In this document: positions 2,376 to 29,087 of the stretch, piece by piece
Layout: each line of letters opens with the position of its first letter
How positions within the stretch are numbered: the stretch's first letter is position 1
Assembly (NCBI RefSeq): GCF_004000235.1
Contig: NZ_RCIO01000001.1
Span: forward strand, 310,001 to 374,000
Source of the DNA: Mesorhizobium sp. Z1-4
GTDB taxonomy: Bacteria > Pseudomonadota > Alphaproteobacteria > Rhizobiales > Rhizobiaceae
Direction of reading: 5' to 3'
Length of the DNA: 64,000 nt
Notes under the pieces: generated by a model
Database searches by the model: none
What the model saw: the letters and a program-made list of their open reading frames with translations, nothing else
What the model was told of the DNA's origin: nothing
Position numbers and translations under genes: made by a program

Positions 2376-2399
2376 CGATGGTTCACCGCTTCTGTGGGC

Positions 2400-4727: not shown

Positions 4728-4740
4728 ACCTGTCATTGCG

Positions 4741-5622: not shown

Positions 5623-5666
5623 CTCCGCTGTCAGGCTCGCCTCCTAAGCTGGCGTACAGGTTCCTC

Positions 5667-6668: not shown

Positions 6669-6676
6669 GACAACGC

Positions 6677-9353: not shown

Positions 9354-9393
9354 TTGCTTCTCCAGAACTAGGGTTTCAGCAGCAGCCGCCGGC

Positions 9394-13490: not shown

Positions 13491-14114
13491 ATGAGCAAGC
13501 GCAAGACCTCACAACCGACGGTCCAGAAATTGCTGGACACCGCAGAGACCATTGTTGCCAGAGACGGCCTGGTGGGCCTCACATATGACCGGGTTTCCAA
13601 GGACGCCGGCGTCGCAAAAGGCACGGTGCTTTATCACTTCGCCTCGAAAGAGGACCTCATCACAGCGGTGATCGAACGGCTTGTGTCGCGCTTCGATGCC
13701 GCGCTTTCGCATGCGATGAGTTCCGACCCCGATGCGAGCGGCCGCGCTGTGCGGGCCTACATAGCCGCCACCCATGAAGGCGACGCTTTCACCGGCGAAT
13801 ATTTCGACCGGGTGAACGGCGCCATCACGGCAGCACTCGCCAACACGCCTGAACGGCTTGCCGCCGTGCAGGCACAGGGCCGGCGCCACCAGGACGCCAT
13901 CATCGCGGATTCACCGGATCCAGTACTCGCCACCATCGTGCGCATGGCGATCGACGGCCTGTGGTTCGCCGAAAGCCTGGGCCTGATGAACTACGACCCG
14001 GCCCTCAAGGCGGCGGTTCTCGCCCGCCTGAAGTCGTGGACCTACGACAAGGAAACCGCGGCCGCCAATGACGCATCCAAGAACAATGAAAAGGGAGAAA
14101 AGAATGCCAAGTAG
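13491..14114 (+). CDS. TetR-family transcriptional repressor
   Basis: A TetR-type repressor of 207 residues. Its N-terminal three-helix DNA-binding domain (residues about 8-55) has DRVSKDAGVAKGTVLYHFASKEDL, the standard recognition pattern. The C-terminal ligand domain is helical and ends with a Lys-rich tail. No ribosome site is obvious because the operator palindrome abuts the start codon. The 3' end overlaps the start of the downstream solute-binding protein gene by 11 bases, so the regulator is part of the ABC importer operon and is likely autoregulated through the palindrome at 13462-13485. The ligand is probably the imported compound or its product (inference). Confidence 0.88.
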   Translation: MSKRKTSQPTVQKLLDTAETIVARDGLVGLTYDRVSKDAGVAKGTVLYHFASKEDLITAVIERLVSRFDAALSHAMSSDPDASGRAVRAYIAATHEGDAFTGEYFDRVNGAITAALANTPERLAAVQAQGRRHQDAIIADSPDPVLATIVRMAIDGLWFAESLGLMNYDPALKAAVLARLKSWTYDKETAAANDASKNNEKGEKNAK

Positions 14115-15219
14115 TCATGTCAAACCGCGCCATGGACTCCACCGCCGCGGCTTCCTCGCCGCTGGCACGGCGGCTGCGGCAGCACTTATGCTGCCACGCT
14201 CGGCCATGGCCGGCACGCAACTGTCGTGGATCGGATGGCAGGGCTACGACGAGCCGCTCAAAGCCGGCGACTTTCTGAAAGACAACGACATAGACCTGTC
14301 GACGACCTATATCGGTTCCAACGAGGAAATCATCACCAAGCTGCAGGCCGGCGGAGCCGGTCAGCTTGACCTGATCTCAATCTATTTCGGGCACATCCCG
14401 ATCCTGGCAGGTGCAGGGCTTATCGAACCTATCGACGAAGCCCGCGTGCCGGGCATCGACAAGATATTCCCCGATTTCCTTGACATCGACACCATCCGCA
14501 TGGACGGCAAGCTCTATGCCGTGCCCTTCACCTGGGGCACTCTGTCCATGATCTACGATCCCAATGCGATTGCCAAACCGGTCTCGTGGAACGACTGTCT
14601 GAAGGACGAATACAAGGGCAAGGTGTCGCTTACCGACGACATCACAGGCCTCATCACGACATGGGCGCCGATCGTCACCGGGACAAAGACACCCACGCGC
14701 CTGACAGCGGCACAGCTCAAAGAGACGATCGACTTCCTCATCAAGATCAAGCGCGAACACGCCCGCACCCTGTCGCCCAACTACGGCGAGGCAACCGACC
14801 TTTACGCACGCGGCGAGGTCGTCATCTCGGCAATCGGCTGGGACGCGCAGGTGGCCTTTGCCGCCGACAAAGGCAAGGAGCTGGCTTTCGTGCGTCCGCA
14901 GGAAGGCGTGATGGTGTTCATGGACACCCTGGCCGTTCCAAGTGGAGCGCCCAACCGCGACGCCGCATACAAAGCGCTGGCGCAGGCGATATCGGCAGCC
15001 GGGCAGACGGTCCTGGCTTCCGATCTGACGCAGGCGGTCGTGAACAGTGACGCAGTGCCGCTGGTCGATGACGTCAACCGCGACGTCTATCAGTATGGCG
15101 ACTTCGAAAACCTGTTCCGGAGCGCCCGGTTTGACCCGTTCTGGCCGTTGCAGGACGATGGCGAATACGCCAGCTACGACCAGGTTCAGGAAGAGTATCA
15201 GCGCTTCCTGCGAGCCTAG
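14104..15219 (+). CDS. ABC importer substrate-binding protein, polyamine type (PotD-like)
   Basis: Periplasmic binding protein of 371 residues for the importer encoded downstream. A twin-arginine style signal, HRRGFLAAG followed by an alanine-rich segment and an AMA cleavage site near residue 37, indicates export as a folded protein. The mature part has the class-F pattern of spermidine/putrescine-binding proteins (DFLKDNDIDLS, EEIITKLQAGG, PFTWGTLSMIYDP, YASYDQVQEEYQRFL at the end). ATG 14104 has GGGAG 9 bases upstream and is preferred over an upstream frame that overlaps the TetR gene more. Binding-site residues were not matched to a known ligand, so polyamine, opine or other cationic compounds remain possible. 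Confidence 0.86.
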   Translation: MPSSHVKPRHGLHRRGFLAAGTAAAAALMLPRSAMAGTQLSWIGWQGYDEPLKAGDFLKDNDIDLSTTYIGSNEEIITKLQAGGAGQLDLISIYFGHIPILAGAGLIEPIDEARVPGIDKIFPDFLDIDTIRMDGKLYAVPFTWGTLSMIYDPNAIAKPVSWNDCLKDEYKGKVSLTDDITGLITTWAPIVTGTKTPTRLTAAQLKETIDFLIKIKREHARTLSPNYGEATDLYARGEVVISAIGWDAQVAFAADKGKELAFVRPQEGVMVFMDTLAVPSGAPNRDAAYKALAQAISAAGQTVLASDLTQAVVNSDAVPLVDDVNRDVYQYGDFENLFRSARFDPFWPLQDDGEYASYDQVQEEYQRFLRA

Positions 15220-15224
15220 CCCAA

Positions 15225-16301
15225 ATGCGCGGCTTCGAATCTGAAGACCCGATCCTGCGGCTGGCAGGATTGGGCAAGCGCTTCGGTCACGCCGACGTGG
15301 TCAAGGATATCGAGCTTACGATCCCGCGCGGATCGTTCACCGCGATCCTTGGCCCGTCAGGCTGCGGCAAATCCACCTTGCTGAGGATGATCGGTGGCCT
15401 GACGCTGCCGACATCCGGCCGCATCGAAATCGATGGCGAGGACGTAACATATACGCCACCGCAGAAGCGGCCCACAAACACCGTGTTCCAGAGCCACGGC
15501 CTGTTTGCGCATATGAGCGTGCACGAAAACGTAGCTTTCGGCCTTTCGCTCGCCGGGCGGCCCCGCGAGGAAATATCCGACCGGGTTGCCGATGCTCTGA
15601 AGCTGGTCAGACTGAGCGGTTTCGAAGGGCGCACGGTCGACCGCCTTTCGGGCGGCCAGCAGCAGCGCGTGGCGCTGGCACGAGCTCTGGTGATGCGGCC
15701 CAAAATCCTTCTACTCGACGAACCTCTCTCGGCCCTCGACCTCAAATTGCGCCAGGCAATGCAGGAAGAACTGCGCGCCATCCATCTGGACACCGGCGGC
15801 ACATTCATCTTCGTCACGCACGATCAGGCCGAGGCATTCGCGCTGGGCGATCGTCTCATAGTCATGAACCAGGGCCGAATCGAACAGGCCGGACCGCCCG
15901 GCGAGGTTTATGCGCGTCCCCGCAGCCGGTTTGCGGCTGAATTCGTCGGCGACGCAAATTTCCTGACGGGCAAACGCAACAACGGCCGGGTCGCGCTCGA
16001 CATAGGTGTGCAATTCGACCTGCCGGGGCCGGACGGCATGCTTAATCTCATGTTGCGCCCCGAAGCCGCACGCCTCCACACAGCCGGCGCCGACAGTCGG
16101 GAGGACGGTCGGATCAGCGTAGAGGGTGTAATCAAAGAGGTCGTCGACCTCGGCCCGTTTGCACAATGCCGGTTCGATCTGGGCGGCGGGCACCATATCG
16201 AGATATCGGGTATCCCCAGGACAATGATCGGCGAGATCGCGGTCGGCAGCCGTGTTTCCGCAAGCTGGCCCAAATCCGCACTGGTTGACGTGACCCCATG
16301 A
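15225..16301 (+). CDS. ABC importer ATPase, PotA type
   Basis: Nucleotide-binding subunit of 358 residues. Walker A GPSGCGKST is near residue 43, the signature LSGGQQQR near 143, Walker B ILLLDEPLSALD near 163 and the switch His in FVTHDQAEA near 196; a TOBE-like C-terminal domain follows from about residue 240. The Q-loop region reads FQSHGLF where most relatives have FQNYALF, a small departure. The gene begins 5 bases after the binding-protein stop and its own stop overlaps the first permease start (ATGA). It powers the importer encoded from 14104 to 17931. Confidence 0.9.
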   Translation: MRGFESEDPILRLAGLGKRFGHADVVKDIELTIPRGSFTAILGPSGCGKSTLLRMIGGLTLPTSGRIEIDGEDVTYTPPQKRPTNTVFQSHGLFAHMSVHENVAFGLSLAGRPREEISDRVADALKLVRLSGFEGRTVDRLSGGQQQRVALARALVMRPKILLLDEPLSALDLKLRQAMQEELRAIHLDTGGTFIFVTHDQAEAFALGDRLIVMNQGRIEQAGPPGEVYARPRSRFAAEFVGDANFLTGKRNNGRVALDIGVQFDLPGPDGMLNLMLRPEAARLHTAGADSREDGRISVEGVIKEVVDLGPFAQCRFDLGGGHHIEISGIPRTMIGEIAVGSRVSASWPKSALVDVTP

Positions 16302-17155
16302 GTGACGCCAGCGCACCGCAACGCAGCACGGGCGGCGCCCTGCTCGCTGCCCCCGCCTTCGCGATCCTGGCGGTGCTTTTCATCGTGCCGATGATACTGC
16401 TCTTTGTTGTGAGCTTCTGGCGCGTGCGCAATTTCGCGCTCACTCCGGATATGTCCCTGGATGCCTACACACGTGTCTTCGTTACCTATGGCGACGTGCT
16501 CGTTTCCACCATGGCGAACGGGAGCGTTACGGCGCTGATCTGCGTCGGCCTCGGCTTCCTGTTTGCCTATGCGGCGCGATTTCGTGCCGGGCGCTGGGGC
16601 GACGCCCTCATTCTCGTTGCGATCATCACGCTTTTTGGCGGCTATCTGGTCAAGATTTACGCCTGGAAAGCGATCCTGAGCACGGATGGATTCCTGAATG
16701 CCATTCTGGTTGCCACCGGGGTGTCAGCAGAGCCACTCGATACGCTGCTTTACAATCGCGGCGCCGTCATTGTGGCGCTGGTCCATTTTCTGCTGCCGTT
16801 TGCCATTCTGCCCATCTACGGCCAGCTGCGCAGTGTGAACGACATACAGATCGAGGCAGCGCACGACCTCGGGGCCAGCGGACGCCAGACATTGATCCGT
16901 GTCATCATCCCGCAATGCCGGATCGGGCTTTTCGCCGCTTTCGCAATCTCGTTTCTGTACGCAGCAGGCGACTACATCACACCTCGCTTTCTCGGCGGCG
17001 GATCGGGCACGATGATCGGACAGTTCATCGCCCAGGAATTCTCGACCCGTTTCAACTGGCCCGCAGGTGCGGCGATGTCATTCGTACTGATGGCGGCAAG
17101 CCTTTTGGTGCTCGGGCTGGTCGGCATCCTTTTCGTCAGGAGAAAACCGTCTTGA
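16298..17155 (+). CDS. ABC importer permease, PotB type
   Basis: Inner-membrane permease of 285 residues with six predicted membrane segments, the first at about residues 14-36. The EAA loop that docks to the ATPase is visible as EAAHDLGASGRQTLIRVIIPQ-like sequence near residue 188. The ATG overlaps the ATPase stop by four bases, and the TGA overlaps the second permease start. It forms the channel as a heterodimer with the next gene product. Gene order (binding protein, ATPase, PotB, PotC) is standard for polyamine-type importers. Confidence 0.9.
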   Translation: MSDASAPQRSTGGALLAAPAFAILAVLFIVPMILLFVVSFWRVRNFALTPDMSLDAYTRVFVTYGDVLVSTMANGSVTALICVGLGFLFAYAARFRAGRWGDALILVAIITLFGGYLVKIYAWKAILSTDGFLNAILVATGVSAEPLDTLLYNRGAVIVALVHFLLPFAILPIYGQLRSVNDIQIEAAHDLGASGRQTLIRVIIPQCRIGLFAAFAISFLYAAGDYITPRFLGGGSGTMIGQFIAQEFSTRFNWPAGAAMSFVLMAASLLVLGLVGILFVRRKPS

Positions 17156-17931
17156 GACAGTTCAGGGCCCTGCTCTGGTTCGCTGTGATTGCGATGCTGG
17201 TTCTGTTCATGCTTGGACCGCTCGCGATCGTCGTGGTGTTTTCCTTCAATTCCGGCGCACTGGTCAGCCTGCCGCTGACCGGCTTCAGTCTCGACTGGTA
17301 CCGTGAACTGTTTTCATCGGACGAGTTCTGGGCTGCGTTCCGCAACAGCCTCGCCGTGGCAGTCCCGACGGCGTTGCTGGCAACGGTGACCGGCACAATG
17401 ACGGCACTCGCGCTGACGCGCAAAAGCGCCTCGGCGAGCGTGCCGCTGCTGACGGCGCTCTCGGTTCCCATCATGATCCCGCCACTGGTCGTCGCGATCG
17501 GTCTGGTCGTGCTTTATGTACGCTGGCTGTCGATCCCGCTTGGCATCGGCGCCGTCATCGGCGGGCACCTGCTATTGACGCAGCCACTGGTCGCGCTGGT
17601 GGTCAGTGCCCGCATGGCAAGCTTCGACCGTGTTGCGCTCGAGGCGGCTCGCGACCTTGGCGCAACACCCTGGCAGGCCTTCCGATATGTGACGCTTCCG
17701 CAGATCAGGGCAGCGCTCGTGGGCGCGGCGCTGCTCGCCTTCGCCATCTCGCTGGACGAATTCATCATCACGATCTTCACGATCGGTTCCGGCAACACAC
17801 TGTCGACTTTCGTGTGGGGCAAGATGCGCACCTCCCTCGACCCCTCCATCAATGCCATCGCAACCCTGCTGCTCGTCGTCACGATAGGCTCGACCGCAAT
17901 TGCTTTGCGTATGACGCGCTACCGCGGCTGA
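17152..17931 (+). CDS. ABC importer permease, PotC type
   Basis: Second permease, about 259 residues, with six membrane segments and the EAA motif (EAARDLGATPWQAFRYVTLP) near residue 163. The start is TTG 17152, which overlaps the PotB stop (TTGA) and has AGGAG nine bases upstream; no ATG lies nearby in frame with family-like N-terminal sequence. It completes the importer and ends the operon; 156 bases follow before the next TetR gene. The TTG start may lower its translation relative to the upstream permease. Confidence 0.87.
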   Translation: MRQFRALLWFAVIAMLVLFMLGPLAIVVVFSFNSGALVSLPLTGFSLDWYRELFSSDEFWAAFRNSLAVAVPTALLATVTGTMTALALTRKSASASVPLLTALSVPIMIPPLVVAIGLVVLYVRWLSIPLGIGAVIGGHLLLTQPLVALVVSARMASFDRVALEAARDLGATPWQAFRYVTLPQIRAALVGAALLAFAISLDEFIITIFTIGSGNTLSTFVWGKMRTSLDPSINAIATLLLVVTIGSTAIALRMTRYRG

Positions 17932-18031: not shown

Positions 18032-18075
18032 TTCAAACAGATGTTTGAAGTTTGGAAATGAAACACCTGTTTGAA
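18032..18075. promoter_or_regulatory. Two tandem operators before a TetR regulator
   Basis: The first site, 18032-18049, is TTCAAACA-N2-TGTTTGAA with perfect eight-base arms. The second, 18058-18075, repeats the core (GAAACA-N2-TGTTTGAA) with 15 of 18 bases the same. The centres are 26 bases apart, and a TTGACA hexamer at 18024-18029 could be the -35 element, so bound repressor would cover the promoter. The pair ends 12 bases before the TetR start codon. Confidence 0.8.
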
Positions 18076-18087
18076 ACGGCTGATTGA

Positions 18088-18744
18088 ATGACTGAGAGAG
18101 CAATAACGGCTTCAGGCGCGACGCGGCTTCGCATCAAATCCGCTGCGCTTGATCTCTACGCTGCCAAGGGGCTCGACGGCGTGACGATCCGGTCGCTGAC
18201 GGAGCACGCAAACGCCAATATGGCAGCCATCAACTACCATTTCGGCAGCAAGGATCAGCTCACGTTCGAGATATTCCGCGACATCGCGCGCAAGTCGGCG
18301 CAAGCCCGTATTGCAATGCTCGATGAGCTGCAGGCCGAATGCGCCGCCGCCGAACGCACGCCAAAGATCCGCGAGATTATCGAGACTTTTGTCGCTCCCT
18401 ATCTCGACGAAAACGACCCGCGCTCCGGTGTGCTGCTTGCGCAACTGATCATGAAACACCGCGCCGGCCCCAACGCCTGGACCGAGGCAGTGGTACGCGA
18501 AGAGCTCGACGGGATGGCGCTGCGCTACATCGGTCTTCTGCTCGAGGCGGCGCCGCATCTGACGAGCAAGGCCGTTCACTGGCGTTACCATCTGATGGTC
18601 GGCGGCATCGTCCTCGCGCTGAGCGACAGCGCCTCAAGCAACCGTCTTGAACGTCTTTCCGGAAAGGCCATGGCGCCGCAAGACATCGCTTCAAAGCGCC
18701 GCGAGATCGTCGATTTTCTCGTCGCCGGCTTCGGAGGCGACTGA
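18088..18744 (+). CDS. TetR-family regulator of the TRAP/glutathione module
   Basis: TetR-type repressor of 218 residues. The DNA-binding domain covers residues about 11-60 (TIRSLTEHANANMAAINYHFGSKDQL); the long C-terminal domain (VAPYLDENDPRSGVLLAQLI) resembles the CerR/YbiH-like group of TetR proteins with an extended ligand domain. It is the first gene of a rightward operon: 57 bases separate it from the TRAP binding-protein gene, with no terminator. The two upstream palindromes are its probable autoregulatory operators. The inducer is likely the TRAP substrate or a breakdown product (inference). Confidence 0.87.
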   Translation: MTERAITASGATRLRIKSAALDLYAAKGLDGVTIRSLTEHANANMAAINYHFGSKDQLTFEIFRDIARKSAQARIAMLDELQAECAAAERTPKIREIIETFVAPYLDENDPRSGVLLAQLIMKHRAGPNAWTEAVVREELDGMALRYIGLLLEAAPHLTSKAVHWRYHLMVGGIVLALSDSASSNRLERLSGKAMAPQDIASKRREIVDFLVAGFGGD

Positions 18745-18801
18745 CCGCATTTCCACCCCCGGAATTCAGCTGGGGAAAGCAATCCAAACGGGAGGAATAG
18801 T

Positions 18802-19866
18802 GTGAATAAGAATAGCGTTATTGCATTGGCAGCCGTGTTGGCGGCGAGCGTTGCCGGCTCGGCGCAGGCCGAAGAGTTCCGCATCACCGTGGCAGCCGGA
18901 CACCCGCCAGTCAGCCTCGGCGTTGCCGGTGTCCAGAAGTTTTTCATCCCTGAAATCAATCGCAGGCTCGCCGAGATGGGCGGGGAGCACAGCATCGAGT
19001 GGACAGAGGCCTATGGCGGCTCGCTGGCCGACTTCAACGGTGTGCTGGAAGCGGTCGAAGACGGTATCGCCGACATGGGCTACGTCGTTCATCTGTTCGA
19101 AGGCGACAAGCTTCCGCTTGAGCAGGTCAGTTATGTCACGCCGTTCGGGACCAACGACACGGCGCTGATGATGAACGTGATCTCCAAGCTCCACAAAGCC
19201 ATTCCGGAGATGGGCGCAGCTTGGGAAAAGCACAACCAGATGGTGCTCGCGCCCACCGGCATCGACACCTACCATCTGCTGTCGAACTTCCCTGTCAACG
19301 AGCTGGGCGATCTCGACGGCCGCCGTATCAGCGTCAGCGGCCTGGCCACCAAGTGGTTGAGCGGCACCGACGCCGTGCCGGTCAGCGGGGCCCTGCCCAC
19401 CTACTACAACTCCATCGCGACCGGTCTGACCGACGGCATGCTGACCTTTGAATCGGCTGTCGCTTCCTACAAATTCTACGAAGTGGCGCCTATCGTCACC
19501 AAGGTGAGCTTCGGCGCGCAGTATTCGAGCGGCCTTACCATCAATCTCGACACCTGGAACCGCTTTCCCGAGGAAGTGAAATCGGTTTTCCTGGAAGTGG
19601 CCGATGCCTATCGCGACCGCACCGCGCAAGCCTACACGTCGGCTGGTGAAAAGAGCCTGCAGGCCGCAGTGGATGCAGGAGCGGAGATCGCCGAGGAGAA
19701 CCCGGATCTGCGCAAGCAGCTGGCGGCCAACCTGCCGAACATCGCCCGCGAATGGGCCGCTGCGCTGGACGCCGAGGGACTTCCCGGGACGGAAACTCTC
19801 GAAACCTATATGAGGCTTTCCCGTGAGGCCGGTGTCGAGTTCGCGCGCGACTGGAGCGCCCAGTAA
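18802..19866 (+). CDS. TRAP transporter substrate-binding protein (DctP family)
   Basis: Periplasmic receptor of 354 residues for a tripartite ATP-independent transporter. A Sec signal peptide ends with GSAQA before EEF (residue 24). The DctP-family fold shows EEFRITVAAGHPP, a GVLEAVEDGIADMGYV helix and GRRISVSGLATKWL, the stretch carrying the usual carboxylate-binding Arg. The start is GTG 18802 with GGAGGAAT at ideal spacing. TRAP receptors mostly bind organic acids, so a carboxylate, possibly aromatic or a ring-cleavage product, is expected given the fumarylacetoacetase and GST genes downstream. Confidence 0.88.
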   Translation: MNKNSVIALAAVLAASVAGSAQAEEFRITVAAGHPPVSLGVAGVQKFFIPEINRRLAEMGGEHSIEWTEAYGGSLADFNGVLEAVEDGIADMGYVVHLFEGDKLPLEQVSYVTPFGTNDTALMMNVISKLHKAIPEMGAAWEKHNQMVLAPTGIDTYHLLSNFPVNELGDLDGRRISVSGLATKWLSGTDAVPVSGALPTYYNSIATGLTDGMLTFESAVASYKFYEVAPIVTKVSFGAQYSSGLTINLDTWNRFPEEVKSVFLEVADAYRDRTAQAYTSAGEKSLQAAVDAGAEIAEENPDLRKQLAANLPNIAREWAAALDAEGLPGTETLETYMRLSREAGVEFARDWSAQ

Positions 19867-19904
19867 GCGTGACGCACCCTTCATCTGGAAGTGGAGCAGC
19901 CGCG

Positions 19905-20414
19905 ATGCGGCTGTTCCATTCACTCGCCTTCGTCATGGCTCTGCTCGGCGGCATCGGCACGCTGGCCATGATGGTGCTCATCAATGTCGATGTGGTTGGG
20001 CGCGGCTTCTTCGGTATGCCGTTTCCCGCGACCGCCGAAATCATCAGCGCCAGTATTGTGGGGATCGTCTTTCTTCAGCTGCCCTACTGCACACTGAAAG
20101 GCAGGAATATCCGCTCAGCCATGCTGCTCGACCGGCTTGCCGGGCGGGGGCATCGCGCGGCCCGCATTCTCGACGGGGTGCACTATCTGATCGGCGGCGT
20201 CATGCTCGCGATCATCGCCTGTTACGCCGTGCCGGAAGTCGTCGAAATGATCGTCGATCGTGAGACCGTCGGCATTCGCGGCATCATGACACTACCGCGC
20301 TGGCCCTTTGTCGTCTCCGTCGCGATTGGCGCGATCCTGACGACCATTGCGTTCTTCATCATTGCCAAACGCCGTCTCATCAGCCCGGAATCGATTGGGG
20401 ACGACGATGAGTAA
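19905..20414 (+). CDS. TRAP transporter small permease (DctQ family)
   Basis: Small membrane subunit of 169 residues with four hydrophobic segments and the typical DctQ N-terminal block MVLINVDVVGRGFF and PATAEII. ATG 19905 has GGAG eight bases upstream and starts at the family N-terminus; GTG 19869 would add 12 polar residues without a ribosome site. It follows the receptor gene by a short gap and overlaps the large permease start by eight bases. The C-terminus is a run of acidic residues (GDDDE). Confidence 0.86.
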   Translation: MRLFHSLAFVMALLGGIGTLAMMVLINVDVVGRGFFGMPFPATAEIISASIVGIVFLQLPYCTLKGRNIRSAMLLDRLAGRGHRAARILDGVHYLIGGVMLAIIACYAVPEVVEMIVDRETVGIRGIMTLPRWPFVVSVAIGAILTTIAFFIIAKRRLISPESIGDDDE

Positions 20415-21714
20415 CGTCGAAATCGGACTGGTCTCTCTGGTCGTCATCGTAGCTCTCATACAGACCGGGCTGCACGTTGCGGTGGCTCTTGCGCTGGTCT
20501 CTTTCGTCGGCGTTTTTCTGGTACGCGGCGACATGTCGATCGCCGGCGCGCTGCTGACGCATGCAGCGCTGGAAAGCGTCGCGCGCTACTCGTTCGGTGT
20601 CATCCCGCTCTTCGTTCTCATGGGAGTTTTGGTCGGTGTTTCGGGGCTCGGCCGGGATATTTTCGACGTAGCCGGGCAGCTGTTCAGGCGCGTGCGCGGC
20701 GGGCTTGCCATCGCCACCGTTTGTGCAAATGCGGTTTTTGCCGCGGTGAACGGAACCTCGATCGCTTCGGCATCGGTGTTCACCAAGGTTGCCGTGCCCG
20801 AGCTCATGAAACAGGGCTACACGCCCCGCTTCTCCGTCGGTGTCGTGGCAGGGTCTTCGGTGTTGGGCATGCTGATCCCGCCCTCGCTGCTGCTCATCCT
20901 CTACGGCATCATCGCCGAGGTCTCGATAGGCGCCCTGTTTACCGCCGGTATCGTGCCGGGGATCGTTCTGGCCTTCTTCTTTATCCTGCTGATCCTATTC
21001 CTGACGACCTTCTTCCCCTCCTTCACTGGCGTCCCGAACGAACCCGCAGGCCAGGAGCTGATGTCGCCGACCGTTCTGTTTGTTAAGGCGGCGCCGATAG
21101 CATTTCTCGTGCTTCTGGTTCTCGGCGGCATCTATGGCGGCTTCTTTACGCCGACCGAGGCGGGCGGCGTCGGCGCGATGGGCGCATTGGTCATCGCGAT
21201 CGCGCGGCGCAGTCTGTCGTACAAGCAGTTCGGCAAGCTCCTCATTGAAACCGGTCAGGTTACCGCCTCGATCACGTTCCTGATCATCGCCGCGCACATG
21301 TATTCGCGCCTGCTGGCGCTGACCGGCGTGCCGGGTGCGATGGTTGGCATGATGGAGGCTGCCGGGCTCGGATTCTTCGCGGTGATGGCGCTCTATTTGC
21401 TGGTCATCATCATACTGGGCACCATTCTCGACAGCGCCTCGATAATGCTCATTCTTCTGCCGCTGATGGTGCCGGTTGTGGCTCAGTTCGACGTCAACCT
21501 CATCTGGTTCGGCATCGTAACGGTCATCGCCGTGGAGGTGGGGTTGCTGACGCCGCCGCTTGGCGTTGCCTGTTTCGTCATCAAGGCCAATCTCGACGAC
21601 AAGTCGATAAGTCTGTCGAACATCTTCAGCGGTGCCGGTCCCTTTGCGCTCGTGATGGTGGTGATGACGGCACTCATTCTTTTCGTACCGGGCATTGCCC
21701 TTCTGCTGCTCTAG
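20407..21714 (+). CDS. TRAP transporter large permease (DctM family)
   Basis: Large permease of 435 residues with about 12 membrane segments, belonging to the ion transporter superfamily; it couples uptake to a sodium or proton gradient. DctM landmarks include the VNGTSIASASVFTKVAVPEL loop, the GSSVLGMLIPPSLLLILYG segment and LTPPLGVACF near the C-terminus. ATG 20407 lies inside the end of the DctQ gene. A nine-base gap leads to the hydrolase gene, so transporter and enzymes form one operon. Confidence 0.9.
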   Translation: MSNVEIGLVSLVVIVALIQTGLHVAVALALVSFVGVFLVRGDMSIAGALLTHAALESVARYSFGVIPLFVLMGVLVGVSGLGRDIFDVAGQLFRRVRGGLAIATVCANAVFAAVNGTSIASASVFTKVAVPELMKQGYTPRFSVGVVAGSSVLGMLIPPSLLLILYGIIAEVSIGALFTAGIVPGIVLAFFFILLILFLTTFFPSFTGVPNEPAGQELMSPTVLFVKAAPIAFLVLLVLGGIYGGFFTPTEAGGVGAMGALVIAIARRSLSYKQFGKLLIETGQVTASITFLIIAAHMYSRLLALTGVPGAMVGMMEAAGLGFFAVMALYLLVIIILGTILDSASIMLILLPLMVPVVAQFDVNLIWFGIVTVIAVEVGLLTPPLGVACFVIKANLDDKSISLSNIFSGAGPFALVMVVMTALILFVPGIALLLL

Positions 21715-21722
21715 GGGGAACC

Positions 21723-22718
21723 GTGCCTGTTCAACCAAAAACCGACCTCGTCGAACTCGGCAACGGCCTGTTCGCCTATATTCAGGAAGACGGTTCCTGG
21801 GGCTGGAGCAACAGCGGCCTGATCGTCAGCGAAGGGCAAAGCCTGATGGTGGACACGCTTTTCACGGGTTACCTCACCCGTGATCTGCTCGATGCTTACC
21901 GCCGCGTGGCGCCCGAAGCCGCCGAAATCGACGTCCTGGTCAACACGCACTCCAACGGCGACCACACATTCGGCAACTACGTTGTCGAGACGGCGCGCAT
22001 CGTCGCCTCGACGCGGTGTGCGCAGGAGATGGCTGAACGGCCGGCCGAAGTCTTCTCCAGAAATATTGCGGACTGGCGCAATCAGGGCGCCCACTGGGAA
22101 TTTCTCCATGAGGTCATGGGAGCCCGCTTCGATTTTTCCGATATCGTCTACTCGCCGCCAAACGAACTGTTCGACGGCCAGAAGACACTGATGCTGGGCG
22201 GCCGCAAGCTGGAGCTGCGCGAGTTCGGCCCCGCGCATACGAGGGGTGACATCGTCATCCACATTCCGGATGCAAAGACAGTTTTCGTCGGCGATCTGCT
22301 GTTTTCCGGCAGCCACCCGATGATCTGGGACGGTTCGATCGCAAACTGGATTCGCGCCTGCGACGAAATCCTGACCTGGGATGTTGATGTCGTCGTACCG
22401 GGCCACGGCCCGGTTGGCGACAAAACGCAGCTTGCAGGCATGCGCGCCTATTTCGTCGATCTGATGGAGGCCGCACAGGAGCGATATTCCGGCGGGCAGC
22501 CATGGCAGGATGCCGCAGCCGAGATAGGGCTTTCGAAATATGACAGCTGGCTCGATCGCGAACGCGTGGTCGGGAACGTGGCGGCCGCCTATCGAGAGCT
22601 TTCGGGTGGGGCGATCCAGCCCGCGCGGGAAGCCGTCGTTACAGAGATGATCAAATTCCACAGAGGCGGCGAGTGCGCACACGGCGACGAGTGCGGTTGT
22701 CACGACAGGAAGGTGTGA
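21723..22718 (+). CDS. Metallo-beta-lactamase-fold hydrolase with Cys/His-rich tail
   Basis: A 331-residue MBL-fold hydrolase. The first metal motif reads THSNGDH near residue 78, with Asn where the second His of HxHxDH normally sits, a variant shared by a known subgroup; further ligands are His in GPAHTRGD, Asp in VGDLLF and His in VPGHGP. The last 17 residues are unusual: ECAHGDECGCH packs three Cys and two His into eleven residues and could bind an extra metal. The start is GTG 21723 with AGGGGGAA upstream. It follows the TRAP permease and precedes a GST and a fumarylacetoacetase. Glyoxalase II-like thioester hydrolysis of a glutathione adduct is one possibility, unproven. Confidence 0.78.
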   Translation: MPVQPKTDLVELGNGLFAYIQEDGSWGWSNSGLIVSEGQSLMVDTLFTGYLTRDLLDAYRRVAPEAAEIDVLVNTHSNGDHTFGNYVVETARIVASTRCAQEMAERPAEVFSRNIADWRNQGAHWEFLHEVMGARFDFSDIVYSPPNELFDGQKTLMLGGRKLELREFGPAHTRGDIVIHIPDAKTVFVGDLLFSGSHPMIWDGSIANWIRACDEILTWDVDVVVPGHGPVGDKTQLAGMRAYFVDLMEAAQERYSGGQPWQDAAAEIGLSKYDSWLDRERVVGNVAAAYRELSGGAIQPAREAVVTEMIKFHRGGECAHGDECGCHDRKV

Positions 22719-22720
22719 AG

Positions 22721-23470
22721 ATGGAACTCGAACTGATCAATCATAACTATTCCACCTGCTCCCAGAAGGTCAGGTTGTGCCTTCATGAAAAGGGGCTGCC
22801 GTTCAAACACACCCAGATCGACTTCCGCGCCAAGGATCACCTCAAGCCGGAATATCTGAAGCTCAATCCCAACGGCGTGGTGCCGACGCTTCTGCACAAT
22901 GGCCGGCCAGTGATCGATAGTTCGGTCATCATGGAGTACCTGGAAGAAGTATTCCCCGAAAAGCCGCTGCAGCCCGACAATCCATATGACCGCGCGCGCA
23001 TGCGCGCATGGCTGCGTTTTATCGAAGAGGTGCCGACGGCAGCGATACGGGTGCCGTCATTCAATGCCGCATTTTCCCGGCATTACCGCGACATGTCGGA
23101 TGCCGAGATCATGGCAAATGCCGATGACCGTCCGCTGCGGCGTGAATTCTACCGGTCGATGGGACGCGAAGGTTTCGAGGATTCCGCCGTCCAGGATAGC
23201 AACGACCGCCTGCGCAAGACCGTCATTCGCATGGACAGCACGCTGGCGGACAGCGCGTGGCTGGTTGGCGACGATCTCAGCCTCGCGGACTTCTGTGTTG
23301 TGCCGACGATCGACCGGATGATTGACCTCGGGCTGGATTTCCTGCTCGACGATGCGCCGCATTTCGCGCGCTGGTGGGCGGCGATCCAGAGCCGCCCCGC
23401 CTATGACCGCACCTACATTCCCGGATCGCGGGTATCCCATGTTTATCAGGATCTGGCCCGTAGCGCCTGA
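22721..23470 (+). CDS. Glutathione S-transferase family protein
   Basis: A 249-residue GST with an N-terminal thioredoxin fold (residues 1-78) and an all-helical C-terminal domain. The active-site loop reads NYSTCSQKVRL with Ser11/Cys13 candidates near residues 11-14; the cis-Pro is in NPNGVVPTL and the glutathione gamma-glutamyl contacts in DSSVIMEYLEE. Next to fumarylacetoacetase, a maleylacetoacetate or maleylpyruvate isomerase function is attractive, but the zeta-class SSxCxWRVRIAL motif is not matched, so a dehalogenase or ether-cleaving GST is also possible. ATG 22721 lies just after the MBL gene stop, with AGGAAGG upstream. Confidence 0.82.
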   Translation: MELELINHNYSTCSQKVRLCLHEKGLPFKHTQIDFRAKDHLKPEYLKLNPNGVVPTLLHNGRPVIDSSVIMEYLEEVFPEKPLQPDNPYDRARMRAWLRFIEEVPTAAIRVPSFNAAFSRHYRDMSDAEIMANADDRPLRREFYRSMGREGFEDSAVQDSNDRLRKTVIRMDSTLADSAWLVGDDLSLADFCVVPTIDRMIDLGLDFLLDDAPHFARWWAAIQSRPAYDRTYIPGSRVSHVYQDLARSA

Positions 23471-23494
23471 TCTGCAACTGCCGTCGGAGGAATA

Positions 23495-24766
23495 ATGTCG
23501 GACCTGCTGCCCAGCTGGCTTGAGTCTGCAAACGCGCCAGGATGCCCGTTTCCGCTCAACAATCTGCCCTATGGGGTATTCTCCGCTGCCGGCGATACGC
23601 CAAGATGCGGTATCGCGATCGGCGACCGGGTGCTGGATATTCCGGCGCTCGCGCGCGCGGGAGCGATCGAATTCGATCCGGGCTTGTTTGTCGAGCCAGC
23701 CTGGAACGCTTTCATGCAGGCTGGGCCTGAAAGCTGGCGAAAGCTGCGGGCGCGTCTTCAGGATCTGCTTGGTGCGAACGGCGATCCGCGTCTGCGCGAC
23801 GACAAGGCGCTGGTGGAAACGGTGCTTGTGCCGCTGGATTCCGTAAAACTTCACGCCCCCTTCAGGGTGACCGAATTCACCGACTTCTTCGCCAGCCGCC
23901 ACCACGCGCAAAATGTCGGGGCCCTTTTCCGCGACCCGCAAAACGCCCTGCCCCCAAACTGGCTTCACATTCCCATCGGCTATAACGGGCGGGCATCCAG
24001 CGTCGTCGCATCGGGCACGGCAATCCACCGGCCCTGGGGGCAGTTGAAGGCCCCCGACGCTGACGCGCCGGTGTTCGCACCGTCGCGGCGTTTCGACATC
24101 GAGCTCGAGCTGGGCGCGGTCATAGGTTCGCCGCTAGGCGGTCCCTCGAGCGTTCAGGAAGCCGACGATGCGATCTTCGGGTACACGTTGCTCAACGACT
24201 GGTCGGCCCGCGACATCCAATTCTGGGAATATCAGCCACTGGGACCATTTCAGGCCAAAGCGACTGCCACGTCGATCGGCGAGTGGATCGTTCCCAAGGC
24301 TGCGCTCGAGCCGTTCCGGGTCGACGCGCCGGCAAGGGAAAAGCCACTCCTCGAATACCTCAAGGAGCCGGGCCCGATGCTCTACGATATCGATCTTGAT
24401 ATCTATCTTCGCGGCGCTGACGGTGAGGAAACCAGGATATCGCGTACCAACTACCGGCACATGTATTATTCGGCGGCGCAGCAGATCGCTCACCATACGG
24501 CCTGTGGATGTCCTATGCGCATTGGCGATTTGACCGGGTCGGGAACTATCTCGGGGCCCACTGACGACAGTCTCGGCTGTCTGATCGAGATGACCAAGGG
24601 CGGTCGCGAACCGCTTGTGCTGAAAGATGGACAGCCCCGCACTTTTCTCGAAGACGGCGACACGGTTCGTTTGACAGGCGCCGCGAAAAGGAACGGCATT
24701 GCCATCGGTTTCGGCAATTGCGTGGGCACGTTGCTCGCGCCGCTCCAGGAACCTTACGCCCGCTGA
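23495..24766 (+). CDS. fahA: Fumarylacetoacetase (FAH family, full length)
   Basis: Hydrolyses fumarylacetoacetate to fumarate and acetoacetate at the end of homogentisate degradation. At 423 residues it is the full-length two-domain form, not the short FAH-fold hydratase. The catalytic His lies in TDFFASRHHAQNVG near residue 130; metal ligands are in DIELELGAVIG and the NDWSARDIQFWEYQ segment near 225-240; the end has GSGTISGP and GNCVGTLLAP. PIGYNGRASS replaces the common PVGYHGRASS, a His-to-Asn change close to the active site. GGAGGAAT gives a clear start. No homogentisate dioxygenase or tyrosine-pathway gene is present, so the ring-cleavage step must be encoded elsewhere or the substrate differs. 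Confidence 0.87.
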   Translation: MSDLLPSWLESANAPGCPFPLNNLPYGVFSAAGDTPRCGIAIGDRVLDIPALARAGAIEFDPGLFVEPAWNAFMQAGPESWRKLRARLQDLLGANGDPRLRDDKALVETVLVPLDSVKLHAPFRVTEFTDFFASRHHAQNVGALFRDPQNALPPNWLHIPIGYNGRASSVVASGTAIHRPWGQLKAPDADAPVFAPSRRFDIELELGAVIGSPLGGPSSVQEADDAIFGYTLLNDWSARDIQFWEYQPLGPFQAKATATSIGEWIVPKAALEPFRVDAPAREKPLLEYLKEPGPMLYDIDLDIYLRGADGEETRISRTNYRHMYYSAAQQIAHHTACGCPMRIGDLTGSGTISGPTDDSLGCLIEMTKGGREPLVLKDGQPRTFLEDGDTVRLTGAAKRNGIAIGFGNCVGTLLAPLQEPYAR

Positions 24767-24943: not shown

Positions 24944-25831
24944 ATGTTTCAGGACGAATTGTTGAAGGGTAAGCGGATACTGGTGACCGGCGGCGGCACC
25001 GGGCTCGGCCGCGTCATTGCCGAGAAGTACCTCTCACTCGGCGCCGATATCTACATCTGCGGACGGCGCGGGAACGTTCTGGAAGAGACCTCAGCCGAAA
25101 TGATGGCTGAACATGGCGGTACCGTTAAATTCAAAGCGGTCGACATTCGCGACGCGGACGCGGTGGATGCGATGGTCGGCGAGATATTCGACGATGGCGG
25201 CCCCCTGACCGGGCTCGTCAACAACGCGGCCGGCAATTTCATCAGCCGCACCGAAGACCTGTCCCACCGCGGCTTCGATGCGATCGCCGACATCGTTATG
25301 CACGGTACGTTTTACGTCACCCATTCAGTGGGCAGGCGGTGGATCGAAGCCGGTGTCCCCGGGTCGGTCGTTTCCATACTCGTAACCTGGGTATTCAACG
25401 GCGGGCCTTACGTCGTTCCGTCCGCCATGTCCAAATCGGCCATCCGGTCGCTGACCCAATCGCTCGCGCTCGAATGGGGTCAGCACGACATTCGCCTTAA
25501 CGCGATCGCGCCGGGCGAGTTTCCGACCGAAGGGATGAGCGCACGCCTTTTGCCGGGCATGAAAAGCGGCCGCGCTGACGATAATCCGATGCGGCGGGTC
25601 GGCCGGATGCCGGAACTTCAGAACCTCGCAACGTTCCTGATGGCCGACGGCGTGGACTGGATCAACGGCCAGACCATTACGATCGACGGCGGGCAATGGA
25701 TGGCCGGCGGCGGCAACTTTTTCAGGTTTCGGGACAAAACGGACGAAGACTGGAACAATATTCGCGATCTGATCAAAGCGCAGAACGCCAAAGACAAGGC
25801 GCAGCGCACGGTCGACCCTGCGAAAGCCTGA
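24944..25831 (+). CDS. Short-chain dehydrogenase/reductase, 2,4-dienoyl-CoA reductase-like
   Basis: A 295-residue SDR. The cofactor motif TGGGTGLG is near residue 16 and NNAAG near 90. The usual YxxxK catalytic pair is changed: the segment reads VVPSAMSKSAI, keeping Lys but with Ser at the Tyr position. Loss of this Tyr, together with LALEWGQHDIRLNAIAPG and EFPTEG, is the pattern of 2,4-dienoyl-CoA reductases of mitochondrial and peroxisomal type, which use other residues. ATG 24944 has GAGAGGG just upstream. As the first gene after the shared motif and upstream of CoA ligase and CoA-transferase genes, it probably reduces an unsaturated acyl-CoA intermediate (inference). Confidence 0.82.
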   Translation: MFQDELLKGKRILVTGGGTGLGRVIAEKYLSLGADIYICGRRGNVLEETSAEMMAEHGGTVKFKAVDIRDADAVDAMVGEIFDDGGPLTGLVNNAAGNFISRTEDLSHRGFDAIADIVMHGTFYVTHSVGRRWIEAGVPGSVVSILVTWVFNGGPYVVPSAMSKSAIRSLTQSLALEWGQHDIRLNAIAPGEFPTEGMSARLLPGMKSGRADDNPMRRVGRMPELQNLATFLMADGVDWINGQTITIDGGQWMAGGGNFFRFRDKTDEDWNNIRDLIKAQNAKDKAQRTVDPAKA

Positions 25832-25896
25832 TCGAGGCTGCTTGCGAATACCGGATGCGGGCGCGGAGCCTGTTTCCGCCAACCGGGAGAAATGTA

Positions 25897-26691
25897 ATGC
25901 CGCGCCGTTTTGTTGACATCTCCGTCGCGCTGGATCCTGTGCTGGCGTCCGATCCGCCGATCATGCAGCCGCAGGTCGAATACATGGATCATCAGGCCAC
26001 CGCCGATCAGATCAAGTCCTTCTTTCCCGGACTGGAGAAGGATCAACTGCCAGACGGCGAGGGTTGGGCTGTCGAACGCCTGACGGTGTCGAGCCACAAT
26101 GGCACGCATCTCGATGCGCCATACCACCATCATTCGACTATGAACCGCGCCCTCAAGCCAGGAGGCGAGCCGGCATCGACAATCGATGAGGTGCCCCTCG
26201 AATGGTGCTTCGCCCCTGGCGTGAAGCTCGACTTTCGTCACATGGCGGATGGCTATGTAGCCACCGCGGGCGACGTGGAGGCCGAGCTCAAGCGGATAGG
26301 CCATGAACTCGCCCCTCTCGACATCGTCCTGGTGAATACCGCAGCCGGCGAACGCTACGGGCACCCCGACTATGTCGGTCGCGGTTGCGGGCTCGGGCGC
26401 GAGGCTACGCTTTATCTGCTCGAACGCGGCGTTCGCGTGACCGGCACCGATGCCTGGTCGTGGGATGCGCCATTTTCGGCTACGGCGGCGCGTTGGGCGA
26501 AGGAAGGCGATCCCTCGATCATCTGGGAGGGGCACAGGGCATCCATGGAGATCGGATATTGCCACATGGAGAAACTGGCCAATCTGGACCAGCTTCCCGG
26601 TCATGGATTCCTGGTCTCCTGTTTTCCCTACAAGATCAAGAAGGCTTCGGCAGGCTTCACCCGCGCGGTCGCCATTTTCGAAGACACATGA
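25897..26691 (+). CDS. Cyclase-family metal-dependent hydrolase (kynurenine formamidase-like)
   Basis: A 264-residue member of the cyclase family (polyketide-cyclase/KynB-like). The family metal-binding motif is clear: SHNGTHLDAPYHHH at residues about 67-80, and the catalytic region near TDAWSWDAPF. Members hydrolyse amides or lactones, for example N-formylkynurenine or isatin, with manganese or zinc. ATG 25897 has GGGAG at good spacing; a second ATG five bases upstream is out of frame. It lies 65 bases after the SDR gene. The KynB function itself is unlikely since no tryptophan-pathway gene is near; ring opening of a lactone or lactam intermediate is the contextual guess. Confidence 0.8.
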   Translation: MPRRFVDISVALDPVLASDPPIMQPQVEYMDHQATADQIKSFFPGLEKDQLPDGEGWAVERLTVSSHNGTHLDAPYHHHSTMNRALKPGGEPASTIDEVPLEWCFAPGVKLDFRHMADGYVATAGDVEAELKRIGHELAPLDIVLVNTAAGERYGHPDYVGRGCGLGREATLYLLERGVRVTGTDAWSWDAPFSATAARWAKEGDPSIIWEGHRASMEIGYCHMEKLANLDQLPGHGFLVSCFPYKIKKASAGFTRAVAIFEDT

Positions 26692-26774
26692 GCCAAGGCT
26701 CGAACTGACGACGCCACTGGGGGTCGCAGGACCCACCAATGCCACTGCACCCATTGCCCTGCGGGAGGATCAAA

Positions 26775-27284
26775 ATGTCCAACAACACTACCGGCGCTGA
26801 AGCCGCACCCAGAACCCAGATTCAGTTCGACTGCGTGGGCACTGCGACCGGCAAAATGCGCAACGAGCTGAATGTGGTCATGAGCCGGCCGTCGCCGGAT
26901 GGCCCCTGGGAACTGGCAAGCGACGAAGGAGCGTTTCATGGCGGCGACGGTTCAGCCCCTCCGCCGCTGGCGCTTTTCGTTGCCGGACTGACCGGCTGCA
27001 TCATGACCCAGATGCGCGCTTTTGCGAAACGCCTGAGCGTTTCACTGGACGATCTCAAGGTCGAAACCCGCGTCGTCTGGGATTGGCAGGCAGCGGGGCG
27101 GATCTATGAAACCGCGCCTCACAGTTTCGAGATCGACATTCTGCTGACCAGTTCCGATGACGCCAGCAAGGTAGTCGAGCTCATCGAAGCGGCAAAAAAG
27201 GGCTGCTTCCTCGAGCAGACACTGGGCACCCGCAACGTCATCAAGCACCGGCTGAAGACAGCCGACGGCTGGCTGACAGTCTAG
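26775..27284 (+). CDS. OsmC/Ohr-family protein
   Basis: A 169-residue OsmC-like protein, a thiol peroxidase fold. The two redox cysteines are present: in the helix LTGCIMTQM near residue 75 and in KKGCFLEQTLG near residue 146. The N-terminal half has a short polar extension before TQIQFDCVG. ATG 26775 has GGGAGGAT 5 bases upstream. In catabolic operons OsmC proteins may remove organic hydroperoxides or act on thioester intermediates; several OsmC proteins occur beside aromatic-CoA genes. It is 83 bases after the cyclase-family gene and 27 before the CoA ligase gene. Confidence 0.82.
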   Translation: MSNNTTGAEAAPRTQIQFDCVGTATGKMRNELNVVMSRPSPDGPWELASDEGAFHGGDGSAPPPLALFVAGLTGCIMTQMRAFAKRLSVSLDDLKVETRVVWDWQAAGRIYETAPHSFEIDILLTSSDDASKVVELIEAAKKGCFLEQTLGTRNVIKHRLKTADGWLTV

Positions 27285-27311
27285 CTGCCGGGCCGGCCAG
27301 GGGGAGCCGCA

Positions 27312-29087
27312 GTGGTTTCTTTTCGTCCAACGCTTTTTCCGGACCAATCATTCGATGTTCAGCATCGCGACGATGGAGCGATTCTGATCAGGTCCGATCT
27401 CGCCCTGCCCGGCGACCGCGAACATGTGATTGCGCCGGTCATGGAATGGGCGAAGCTGAAACCCGGCGCCGCCGCATTTGCCGAACGGAAGGATGAAGAC
27501 GCCCTGACCTGGCGCTTCCTGACCTGGTCCGCGCTTCGCAACGATATCTACCGTTTCGGGAATGCGTTGCTGGAAAACGGCCTGGGCCAGCATAGTCCGC
27601 TCGTCATGGCGTGCCGCAACAGCCTGGATGCCGCACGCCTGATCTGCGCGGCTCTCTACGTCGGCGTGCCGGTCGTGCCGGTCACGCCAGCGATCCTGAA
27701 CGCCGGTGATGATCGCCTGCGTACCGTTCTGGAAAAGGTCGCTGCCGGCGCCGTTTTCGTCGATGACGGCAATCGGCTTGCAGGCTTCGGCGACTTGATC
27801 CTGCGGCTTGCGTCGCGTTCCCAGATGACGGGTGTAACGCCGCTGGCCGAGTTGTCGGCATCAACACACGGCGCCGAAAGCGTGGACGGGGCACACGCGG
27901 CGCTCAAACCGCATCACCGTGCGAAGATCATGTTTACCTCGGGTTCCGCAGGGAATCCCAAGGGTGTTGTCCAAACGTTTGGCATGCTGGCGGCAAACCG
28001 CACGGCAAATGCCATGATAACCGCGAGCCGCCCAATAGAGAACGCGCAGTTCATTGACTGGATGCCCTGGTCGCACGTGATGGGCGGCAACATCATCTTC
28101 AACCGCAGCCTGCTGGCCGGGGCAACGCTGTATATCGACGACGGCCGCCCCGTTGAGGGACAGTTCGCGCGGACGATCGAGAATTTGAAGTCGGTCAGCC
28201 CCGACAGCTTCACCTCAGCGCCTCTGGCGTTTTCGATGCTGATCGATGCCTTTGAACGGGATGCCGACCTTGCCCGCGGGTTTCTGCGGAATATGCGTTT
28301 CATGACGTTTGGCGGCGCAGCGATGTCGACGGTTGTTGCCGGCCGCTTTCACGCGCTGGCAGAGCGGCTGTTTGGTGAGCGCATTACTCTGTGCTCGGGC
28401 TACGGAGCCACGGAAGCCAGCGGCAGCGCGCTGCTGCAGACTGGAGCATTCCACCGCTCCGACCTTCTGGGTCTGCCCATACCCGGTCTGACTGCCAAGC
28501 TCACGCCCGGCGATGGCGGGTATGAGTTAGGGCTGAGCGGCCCCATGGTGTTTTCGGAGTATCTCAACGATCCCGATGCAACGGGGGCGGCATTCGACGA
28601 TGAGGGCTTCTTCAAGACGGGCGATCTGGTCACGTTCGACACGATCGAGGATGGGCTGGTTTTCTCCGGGCGGGCATCGGTTGCCTTCAAGCTCGACAGC
28701 GGAACATGGGTCAACGCCGACGGACTGAGGCGATCGCTGATCGAGACCTTGGCGCCGCTTGCCCAGGACGCAATAATCTGCGGTGAGGGAAGGCGCGACG
28801 TCCGGGCTCTCATCTTGCCGCGCGAAGAGGGCTTCAAGGCCGAGTTCGGCTGCAGCGCTGGAGAAATGCTGGAGAATGGACGGCGCACGCTTGAAGCGTT
28901 CGTGCGTAAACGCCTGCAGCAGGCAAACGCAGGATCGGGAAGCAGCCGGCGCATCGCGCGCGCAGCGTTCCTGGACAAACCGGTGTCGAACGCGGCCGGT
29001 GAAATCAATGACAAGGGCCACGTGAACCAGCGGCGCTGCCTGGCGACCCGCCGTGCACAGGTCGAGGAGCTCTATCGTGACTGCTGA
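27312..29087 (+). CDS. AMP-forming CoA ligase, feruloyl-CoA synthase-like
   Basis: An acyl-adenylate-forming enzyme of 591 residues that would activate an aromatic or related acid to its CoA thioester. The phosphate loop MFTSGSAGNPKGVV is near residue 210, the adenine block YGATEASG near 363, FFKTGDL near 439 and the catalytic C-terminal Lys in GEINDKGHVNQR near 567. The N-terminal part with ILIRSDLALPG and the overall length fit the feruloyl-CoA synthase group rather than benzoate or 4-coumarate ligases. GTG 27312 with AGGGGGAG upstream is the start. The next gene, a CoA-transferase, overlaps its 3' end. The substrate cannot be read from sequence. Confidence 0.85.
   Translation: MVSFRPTLFPDQSFDVQHRDDGAILIRSDLALPGDREHVIAPVMEWAKLKPGAAAFAERKDEDALTWRFLTWSALRNDIYRFGNALLENGLGQHSPLVMACRNSLDAARLICAALYVGVPVVPVTPAILNAGDDRLRTVLEKVAAGAVFVDDGNRLAGFGDLILRLASRSQMTGVTPLAELSASTHGAESVDGAHAALKPHHRAKIMFTSGSAGNPKGVVQTFGMLAANRTANAMITASRPIENAQFIDWMPWSHVMGGNIIFNRSLLAGATLYIDDGRPVEGQFARTIENLKSVSPDSFTSAPLAFSMLIDAFERDADLARGFLRNMRFMTFGGAAMSTVVAGRFHALAERLFGERITLCSGYGATEASGSALLQTGAFHRSDLLGLPIPGLTAKLTPGDGGYELGLSGPMVFSEYLNDPDATGAAFDDEGFFKTGDLVTFDTIEDGLVFSGRASVAFKLDSGTWVNADGLRRSLIETLAPLAQDAIICGEGRRDVRALILPREEGFKAEFGCSAGEMLENGRRTLEAFVRKRLQQANAGSGSSRRIARAAFLDKPVSNAAGEINDKGHVNQRRCLATRRAQVEELYRDC

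Follow-up and report, generated by a model that had tools for sequence, protein, structure and literature searches.

Mesorhizobium sp. Z1-4 carries a seven-gene operon which joins a tripartite ATP-independent periplasmic (TRAP) importer to three enzymes: a metallo-beta-lactamase (MBL)-fold hydrolase, a glutathione S-transferase (GST) and a fumarylacetoacetase (FAH). The operon lies at positions 18032-24766 of the window, a 64-kb stretch of this genome in which positions are counted from the first letter. The seven genes almost certainly form one conserved regulon under a TetR repressor, as judged from gene order and operator sequences. The regulon is well supported at the sequence level, and from it we infer a pathway chemistry. 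A neutral precursor would be taken up by an importer whose receptor lacks the carboxylate-binding arginine and would then pass to MBL, GST and FAH in turn; the chances that this import-and-cleave account is correct are about even.

The operon is conserved and yet apparently undescribed, as a combination of ordinary protein families. A full-text literature search for work joining its parts found none beyond an incidental mention in proteomics.

Organisation and conservation of the operon

All seven genes are on the + strand and either overlap or are separated by gaps of at most 57 bp. The first encodes a TetR/PsrA-like repressor of 218 residues (18088-18744; domains TetR_N and TetR_C_30). It is followed by the DctP-family solute-binding protein (18802-19866), the small permease DctQ (19869-20414) and the large permease DctM (20410-21714). 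The MBL-fold hydrolase (21723-22718), a LigF-like GST of 249 residues (22721-23470) and a full-length fumarylacetoacetase (23495-24766) complete the set; for the GST, an ATG start is preferred over the listed GTG at 22673. A preliminary description of this DNA had proposed a unit of TRAP importer, MBL hydrolase, GST and FAH under one TetR with a double operator. Every part of that unit is present, and its control by a single TetR is borne out by the gene order of related operons and by the operator footprint described below.

Identical seven-gene order is found in one sister genus within the Rhizobiaceae (L075/L197 and L198), in Sulfitobacter (L077) and in Desertibaculum (L095). The genes are fewer or differently arranged in L076, L078 (Albimonas), L100, L152 and a Pseudosulfitobacter plasmid (L052). 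Proteins of the sister genus are 63% (MBL), 65-67% (GST) and 61% (receptor) identical to those of the window, and DctM is 69-72% identical in the closest operons. A genome scan with the MBL protein alone as query returned nothing useful. Over the operon, a sigma-70 promoter scan gave zero matches and a terminator scan gave matches at chance level only; RNA folding of the gap after FAH gave z = -0.7.

Two related loci have features of their own. In the sister-genus metagenome-assembled genome (MAG; L075, 12861-16949) the operon directly adjoins integrase- and phage portal-like genes, as judged by eye. On the Pseudosulfitobacter plasmid, DctM is split across two reading frames (L052, 14627-15983), either by a frameshift or by a sequencing error.

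The TetR regulator and its operators

Three repeats precede the TetR gene; none is assigned a strand. The first (18032-18049) is a perfect palindrome, TTCAAACA-GA-TGTTTGAA, and is the top match in the 64 kb; it contains the PsrA-type core CAAACAGATGTTTG at 18034-18047. The second, ATGAAACACCTGTTTGAA (18058-18075), lies 26 bp from the first and has the core GAAACACCTGTTTG at 18060-18073. A weaker third repeat, TTGAAACGGCTGATTGAA (18071-18088), follows 13 bp after the second and ends at the TetR start codon. The two cores are the sole matches to SAAACNNNNGTTTS in the window, against an expected 0.17; two or more matches arose in 2 of 100 shuffles. Genome-wide, the motif is near chance (14 sites versus 11 for the reversed control), and no other pair lies within 1 kb of each other. 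Because of this chance-level frequency, the PsrA motif alone was dropped as proof of an operator, and a footprint across related operons was used instead.

The footprint takes the first operator site of the window as its only template and seeks the best match across whole loci (12.8-25 kb). In all six TetR-bearing related operons (L052, L075, L076, L077, L078 and L095) this match is located in the promoter of either the TetR gene or the receptor gene, and in L198 it likewise lies in the promoter. The window's own operator is also top-ranked in its locus and lies in the promoter. The Pseudosulfitobacter plasmid has its MBL gene in divergent orientation; there, TetR, MBL and receptor genes each have one of the three top-scoring sites of the 24.9-kb locus upstream. 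L100 and L152, whose importer and MBL genes have no related TetR nearby, gave no operator match. Secondary sites at 13-bp spacing are seen in five loci (L075, L076, L077, L078 and L198); spacing in the window is 26 and 13 bp. The raw scores overstate this phasing, because scoring of an 18-bp palindrome hands a neighbour shifted by 13 bp about four matches for free; the top-ranked sites are independent of the effect.

The closest solved relative of the repressor is 2fbq (56 bits), which we take to be P. aeruginosa PsrA. Against the PsrA equivalog model NF053516 the repressor scores 67.2 bits, below the cut-off of 300. Orthologs of it are carried by the related operons. The PsrA operator consensus is G/CAAAC(N2-4)GTTTG/C, and two such repeats stand in the promoter of S. 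maltophilia Smlt2053 itself (PMC10304680). A consensus of this type is also present at the TetR gene's own promoter in the window (18034-18047 and 18060-18073), and from its position the repressor is probably autoregulated.

The importer and its arginine-less receptor

The DctP, DctQ and DctM subunits are all present (PF03480, PF04290 and PF06808); DctM scores 275 bits against TIGR00786, above the cut-off of 268. DctP-type receptors are regarded as carboxylate receptors on account of one arginine, which is found in 96.8% of 6142 of them and confers carboxylate selectivity (PMC4646407). This canonical arginine is not present in the window receptor, which reads GRRISVSG. The position of SiaP Arg147 is occupied by Ser in the window and by S, G, N, V, I or A in all 19 aligned relatives; Arg does stand there in an unrelated TRAP receptor that this genome encodes close to hmgA. 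Among arginine-less receptors are a protein with a hydrophobic pocket and one that binds ethanolamine (PMC4646407). From the receptor sequence, a substrate other than a carboxylate appears moderately favoured. An arginine-less subfamily is now tied to a definite enzyme set; the question of its substrate can therefore be tested with a handful of genes.

The preliminary description had suggested that the compound imported is a maleyl-type or diketo acid, opened before uptake. In such a scheme GST and FAH would finish the breakdown and the MBL protein would be accessory. Most DctP-type importers do carry carboxylates (PMC4646407), the FAH is a true fumarylacetoacetase, and the GST has the zeta-like motif STCSQKVR. 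However, the loss of the carboxylate-binding arginine throughout the receptor subfamily makes uptake of an opened diketo acid unlikely; in addition, the GST is nearer to LigF than to the maleylacetoacetate isomerase MaiA, and the operon keeps its MBL gene more consistently than its GST gene. This part of the preliminary description is not upheld, and the scheme as a whole is unlikely.

The MBL-fold hydrolase

In the preferred account, a neutral precursor would be cleaved after import and the MBL-fold protein (PF00753) would catalyse the first intracellular step; for and against, this assignment is evenly poised. The protein has the motif HxNxDH (H76, N78, D80, H81) plus H172, D191 and H228. 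H76, D80, H81, H172, D191 and H228 are invariant in 90 MBL sequences. The canonical HxHxDH is replaced by HxNxDH in 84 of the 90 and by HxDxDH in the other six, a count that is biased because 80 of the MBL loci were retrieved partly with a pattern holding N or D at the second His position. The structural model has a mean pLDDT of 91, and its nearest folds are a Burkholderia MBL protein (8d2z) and chlorothalonil dehalogenase (6uxu).

This MBL subfamily often adjoins FAH genes in Alpha- and Betaproteobacteria and in some Actinomycetota and Chloroflexota; no assigned function was found for it. An FAH-family gene lies within 2 kb of it in 21 of 65 loci, compared with 1 of 49 at 6-8 kb (Fisher P = 2e-5). 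The TRAP-cyclase-FAH operons of Thalassospira and Pseudosulfitobacter pseudonitzschiae have no MBL gene; behind an importer of the same subfamily they encode a cyclase-family enzyme (PF04199) and a short FAH. Two unrelated metal-dependent hydrolase families thus fill one position. The conservation of the MBL protein and its replacement by PF04199 point to a bond that would be left to hydrolyse after import. Other MBL-FAH clusters (L053, L121) hold a FAD monooxygenase and a VOC extradiol-type dioxygenase; together with the TRAP-cyclase-FAH operons, these gene contents support a predicted hydrolytic ring- or ester-opening ahead of FAH in ring catabolism.

Fumarylacetoacetase and the homogentisate pathway

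The window FAH scores 478.4 bits against TIGR01266 (cut-off 375.3), as expected of a true fumarylacetoacetase, and retains all metal and catalytic residues. One pocket residue differs: Y128 (mouse numbering) is Phe in the window and Tyr in the rest of its clade. It is with good probability the enzyme of the last step. In the FAH tree it is embedded in a group of long FAHs from the same order, of which several are encoded next to hmgA (100/99 support; 60-62% identity). It falls outside the group of long FAHs which adjoin MBL genes in Sphingomonads and others (39-43% identity).

Related TRAP-MBL operons, where they have an FAH, have a short FAH-family protein; these are about 45-67% identical among themselves, and the one scanned (L075) lacks the fumarylacetoacetase N-terminal domain. 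Among the related TRAP-MBL operons seen, only that of the window has the long type. No intact short-type FAH was found elsewhere in the genome (best match 43% over 187 residues). The simplest reading of these sequences is that a long fumarylacetoacetase, originating from a homogentisate operon, took the place of an earlier short FAH; it would act on the same or a very similar intermediate. Such a natural exchange for an enzyme with known function hints at the shape of the last intermediate, and suggests that it is close to fumarylacetoacetate. A reciprocal swap between TRAP and hmg operons was rejected: the N-terminal domain of the hmg-locus FAH is of the N_2 type, and this FAH is only 23-28% identical to the short FAHs.

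The long FAHs beside the MBL subfamily (L053, L081, L093, L113, L117, L120, L121, L123, L135 and L148) vary at Y128, R142 and Y244 and keep their metal and catalytic residues. These three residues presumably hold the substrate carboxylate in the mouse FAH structure. Their variation suggests a different end group on the substrate. A literature search on FAH pocket residues found nothing.

As the preliminary description stated, the unit contains no ring-cleavage dioxygenase; a catechol-type intradiol dioxygenase is encoded outside it, at about 2403-3284 of the window. The only copy of homogentisate dioxygenase, hmgA (TIGR01015; G000:C1:403752-405038), is 69 kb downstream of the window FAH, in a locus with HPD and its own, different FAH. 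The true MaiA is on another contig (C23:517054-517683; 271 bits). The gentisate pathway was rejected, since no match to gentisate 1,2-dioxygenase (TIGR02272) was found in the genome.

These genes raise the possibility of an operon that serves the distant hmgA by taking up homogentisate or its lactone and that contributes a dedicated fumarylacetoacetase. In favour of this, hmgA, HPD and a true MaiA are all encoded in the genome, the window FAH is nested within homogentisate-operon enzymes, and an arginine-less receptor would suit homogentisate lactone. Against this, the hmg locus already has its own FAH, to which the short FAHs of related operons have little likeness, and the operon does not follow hmgA from genome to genome. 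In a search of nine related genomes, hmgA was not matched in L075, L078 (Albimonas), L153 (Eilatimonas), L080 or L100; its absence in L075 is weak evidence because this MAG assembly is partial (79% complete). Desertibaculum has the full seven-gene operon with an hmgA match of just 80 bits (cut-off 511). G325 and Sulfitobacter have both operon and hmgA. HGD was not found in any of 80 neighbourhoods at the distances tested. A strict link between operon and hmgA was rejected on the basis of Desertibaculum, Albimonas and Eilatimonas. A homogentisate role is possible in this genome and is not general; as an explanation of the operon it is improbable.

The homogentisate locus has an MBL-fold protein of its own (L057, 5721-9318; G000:C1:401720-405317). 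It has lost key metal ligands, with HYHAVR for HxHxDH and PGRGD for PGHGP. Proteins 76-79% identical to it lie beside FAH, and some also beside hmgA, in genomes of the same order (L155, L156, L165 and L170). From these substitutions, it is apparently a non-enzymatic or altered protein kept in homogentisate operons.

The glutathione S-transferase

The preliminary description had likened the last two steps to those of homogentisate or gentisate degradation. For FAH the likeness stands on the TIGR01266 score, the tree and the active site; for the GST it does not. Against the maleylacetoacetate isomerase model TIGR01262 the GST scores 79.8 bits, with a match to the N-terminal domain only; this is well under the cut-off of 171.05, and identity with MaiA was rejected. 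Its closest solved relative is LigF, both by sequence (90.8 bits, residues 5-229) and as rank 1 by predicted fold.

This relationship could point to lignin-type compounds, of which the GST would cleave an ether or a glutathione adduct, with MBL and FAH processing the remainder. Such an aryl-ether pathway would fit the LigF match, as well as L080, in which a TauD/TfdA-family gene precedes GST-MBL-FAH. However, the score against the NCBIfam beta-etherase equivalog (NF042997) is 35.6 bits, compared with a cut-off of 440, and GSTs about 48-50% identical adjoin intradiol dioxygenases, not ether-cleavage genes. The pathway is accordingly given little probability.

That the seven genes are mere neighbours and the importer carries an unrelated solute is very improbable and largely refuted; importers of the same subfamily elsewhere do adjoin xanthine dehydrogenase, acetoacetate-CoA ligase or CoA-transferase genes, but this reading is opposed by the synteny of all seven genes across Rhizobiaceae, the Roseobacter group and Desertibaculum and by the shared operator ahead of the divergent MBL gene on the Pseudosulfitobacter plasmid.

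Proposed pathway

In the import-and-cleave account, the operon would stay repressed by its own TetR in the absence of an inducer. The importer would take up a substrate that it does not hold by a carboxylate salt bridge, most likely a neutral and probably cyclic precursor such as a lactone or another ring that can be hydrolysed. The MBL enzyme would convert it by hydrolysis into an open maleyl-type beta-diketo acid. The GST would act on the cis form, either by isomerisation or by removal of glutathione or an aryl group. Finally, C-C cleavage by FAH would release fumarate, or an acid like it, together with acetoacetate or pyruvate.

Several observations weigh against this account. The GST is missing from four relatives that have importer and MBL genes (L076, L078, L100 and L152); the GST step is consequently not essential. 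Arginine-less receptors are few and their ligands varied (PMC4646407), so that a carboxylate may be held in another way. In the MBL protein the HxHxDH motif is without its second His, and the closest named structure is that of a dehalogenase and not of a lactonase. A role in homogentisate degradation would suit the window FAH just as well.

More tentatively, and with the balance somewhat against it, the operon may represent an undescribed catabolic route that is spread across several bacterial groups. The route would combine an arginine-less TRAP subfamily for neutral ring compounds, a new MBL enzyme that opens them, a LigF-like GST and an interchangeable FAH; here a tyrosine-pathway enzyme would have been swapped in, indicating the identity of the last intermediate.

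Neighbouring genes

A set of aromatic-ring genes lies at 249-10863 of the window. It includes a muconate cycloisomerase (470 bits, cut-off 335), the catechol-type intradiol dioxygenase, a PcaD-like hydrolase, Rieske oxygenase subunits with a reductase, a glutamine amidotransferase and a gamma-glutamyl ligase. We take this gene set to resemble aniline-type degradation. Immediately upstream of the operon (13491-17931) is a separate TetR gene (PF17937), followed by a polyamine-type ABC importer.

The next block downstream (24944-30276) encodes a dehydrogenase, a PF04199 cyclase, OsmC, an AMP-ligase and a CoA-transferase. The cyclase is 72-73% identical to cyclases within TRAP-cyclase operons (Shinella L073, and a relative, L200, with OsmC nearby); because of this identity, the block perhaps forms another such module.

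Comparison with known systems

The repressor shares an operator consensus and an autoregulatory position with PsrA-family TetR regulators (P. aeruginosa PsrA and Smlt2053). It differs in scoring far under the equivalog cut-off, and its targets are an importer and hydrolase pathway, not beta-oxidation genes. TarPQM of Rhodopseudomonas palustris is also a DctP-type TRAP importer within an aromatic catabolic locus; its receptor keeps the arginine (Arg149), where the window receptor has Ser, and binds cinnamic acids (PMC3610893).

Homogentisate (tyrosine) degradation by HmgA, MaiA and FAH shares its final enzyme with the operon, in that the window's last protein is a TIGR01266 fumarylacetoacetase 60-62% identical to enzymes beside hmgA. 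In contrast to that pathway, the operon has no ring-cleavage dioxygenase, its GST is under the MaiA cut-off, importer and MBL protein are extra, and related operons have the other FAH type. Gentisate degradation, with its maleylpyruvate isomerase and fumarylpyruvate hydrolase, resembles the related operons in pairing a GST with a short FAH-family hydrolase; as differences, no gentisate 1,2-dioxygenase was found in this genome and the window FAH is of the long type. The LigF beta-etherase of Sphingobium SYK-6 (4xt0) is the best match to the GST over nearly its full length, by sequence and predicted fold. The two are only 29% identical in the fold alignment, however; the GST has another active-site motif and falls far short of the beta-etherase cut-off.

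The MBL model resembles chlorothalonil hydrolytic dehalogenase (6uxu) and the Burkholderia MBL protein (8d2z), with TM-scores by target of 0.79 and 0.80. Identity to both is about 20%, and the window subfamily is set apart by HxNxDH or HxDxDH. The TRAP-cyclase-FAH operons of Thalassospira marina (L068) and Pseudosulfitobacter pseudonitzschiae (L186) share with the operon the importer subfamily, the short FAH family of its relatives and a metal-dependent hydrolase family at the MBL position; they differ in having a PF04199 cyclase instead of the MBL protein, and no GST.

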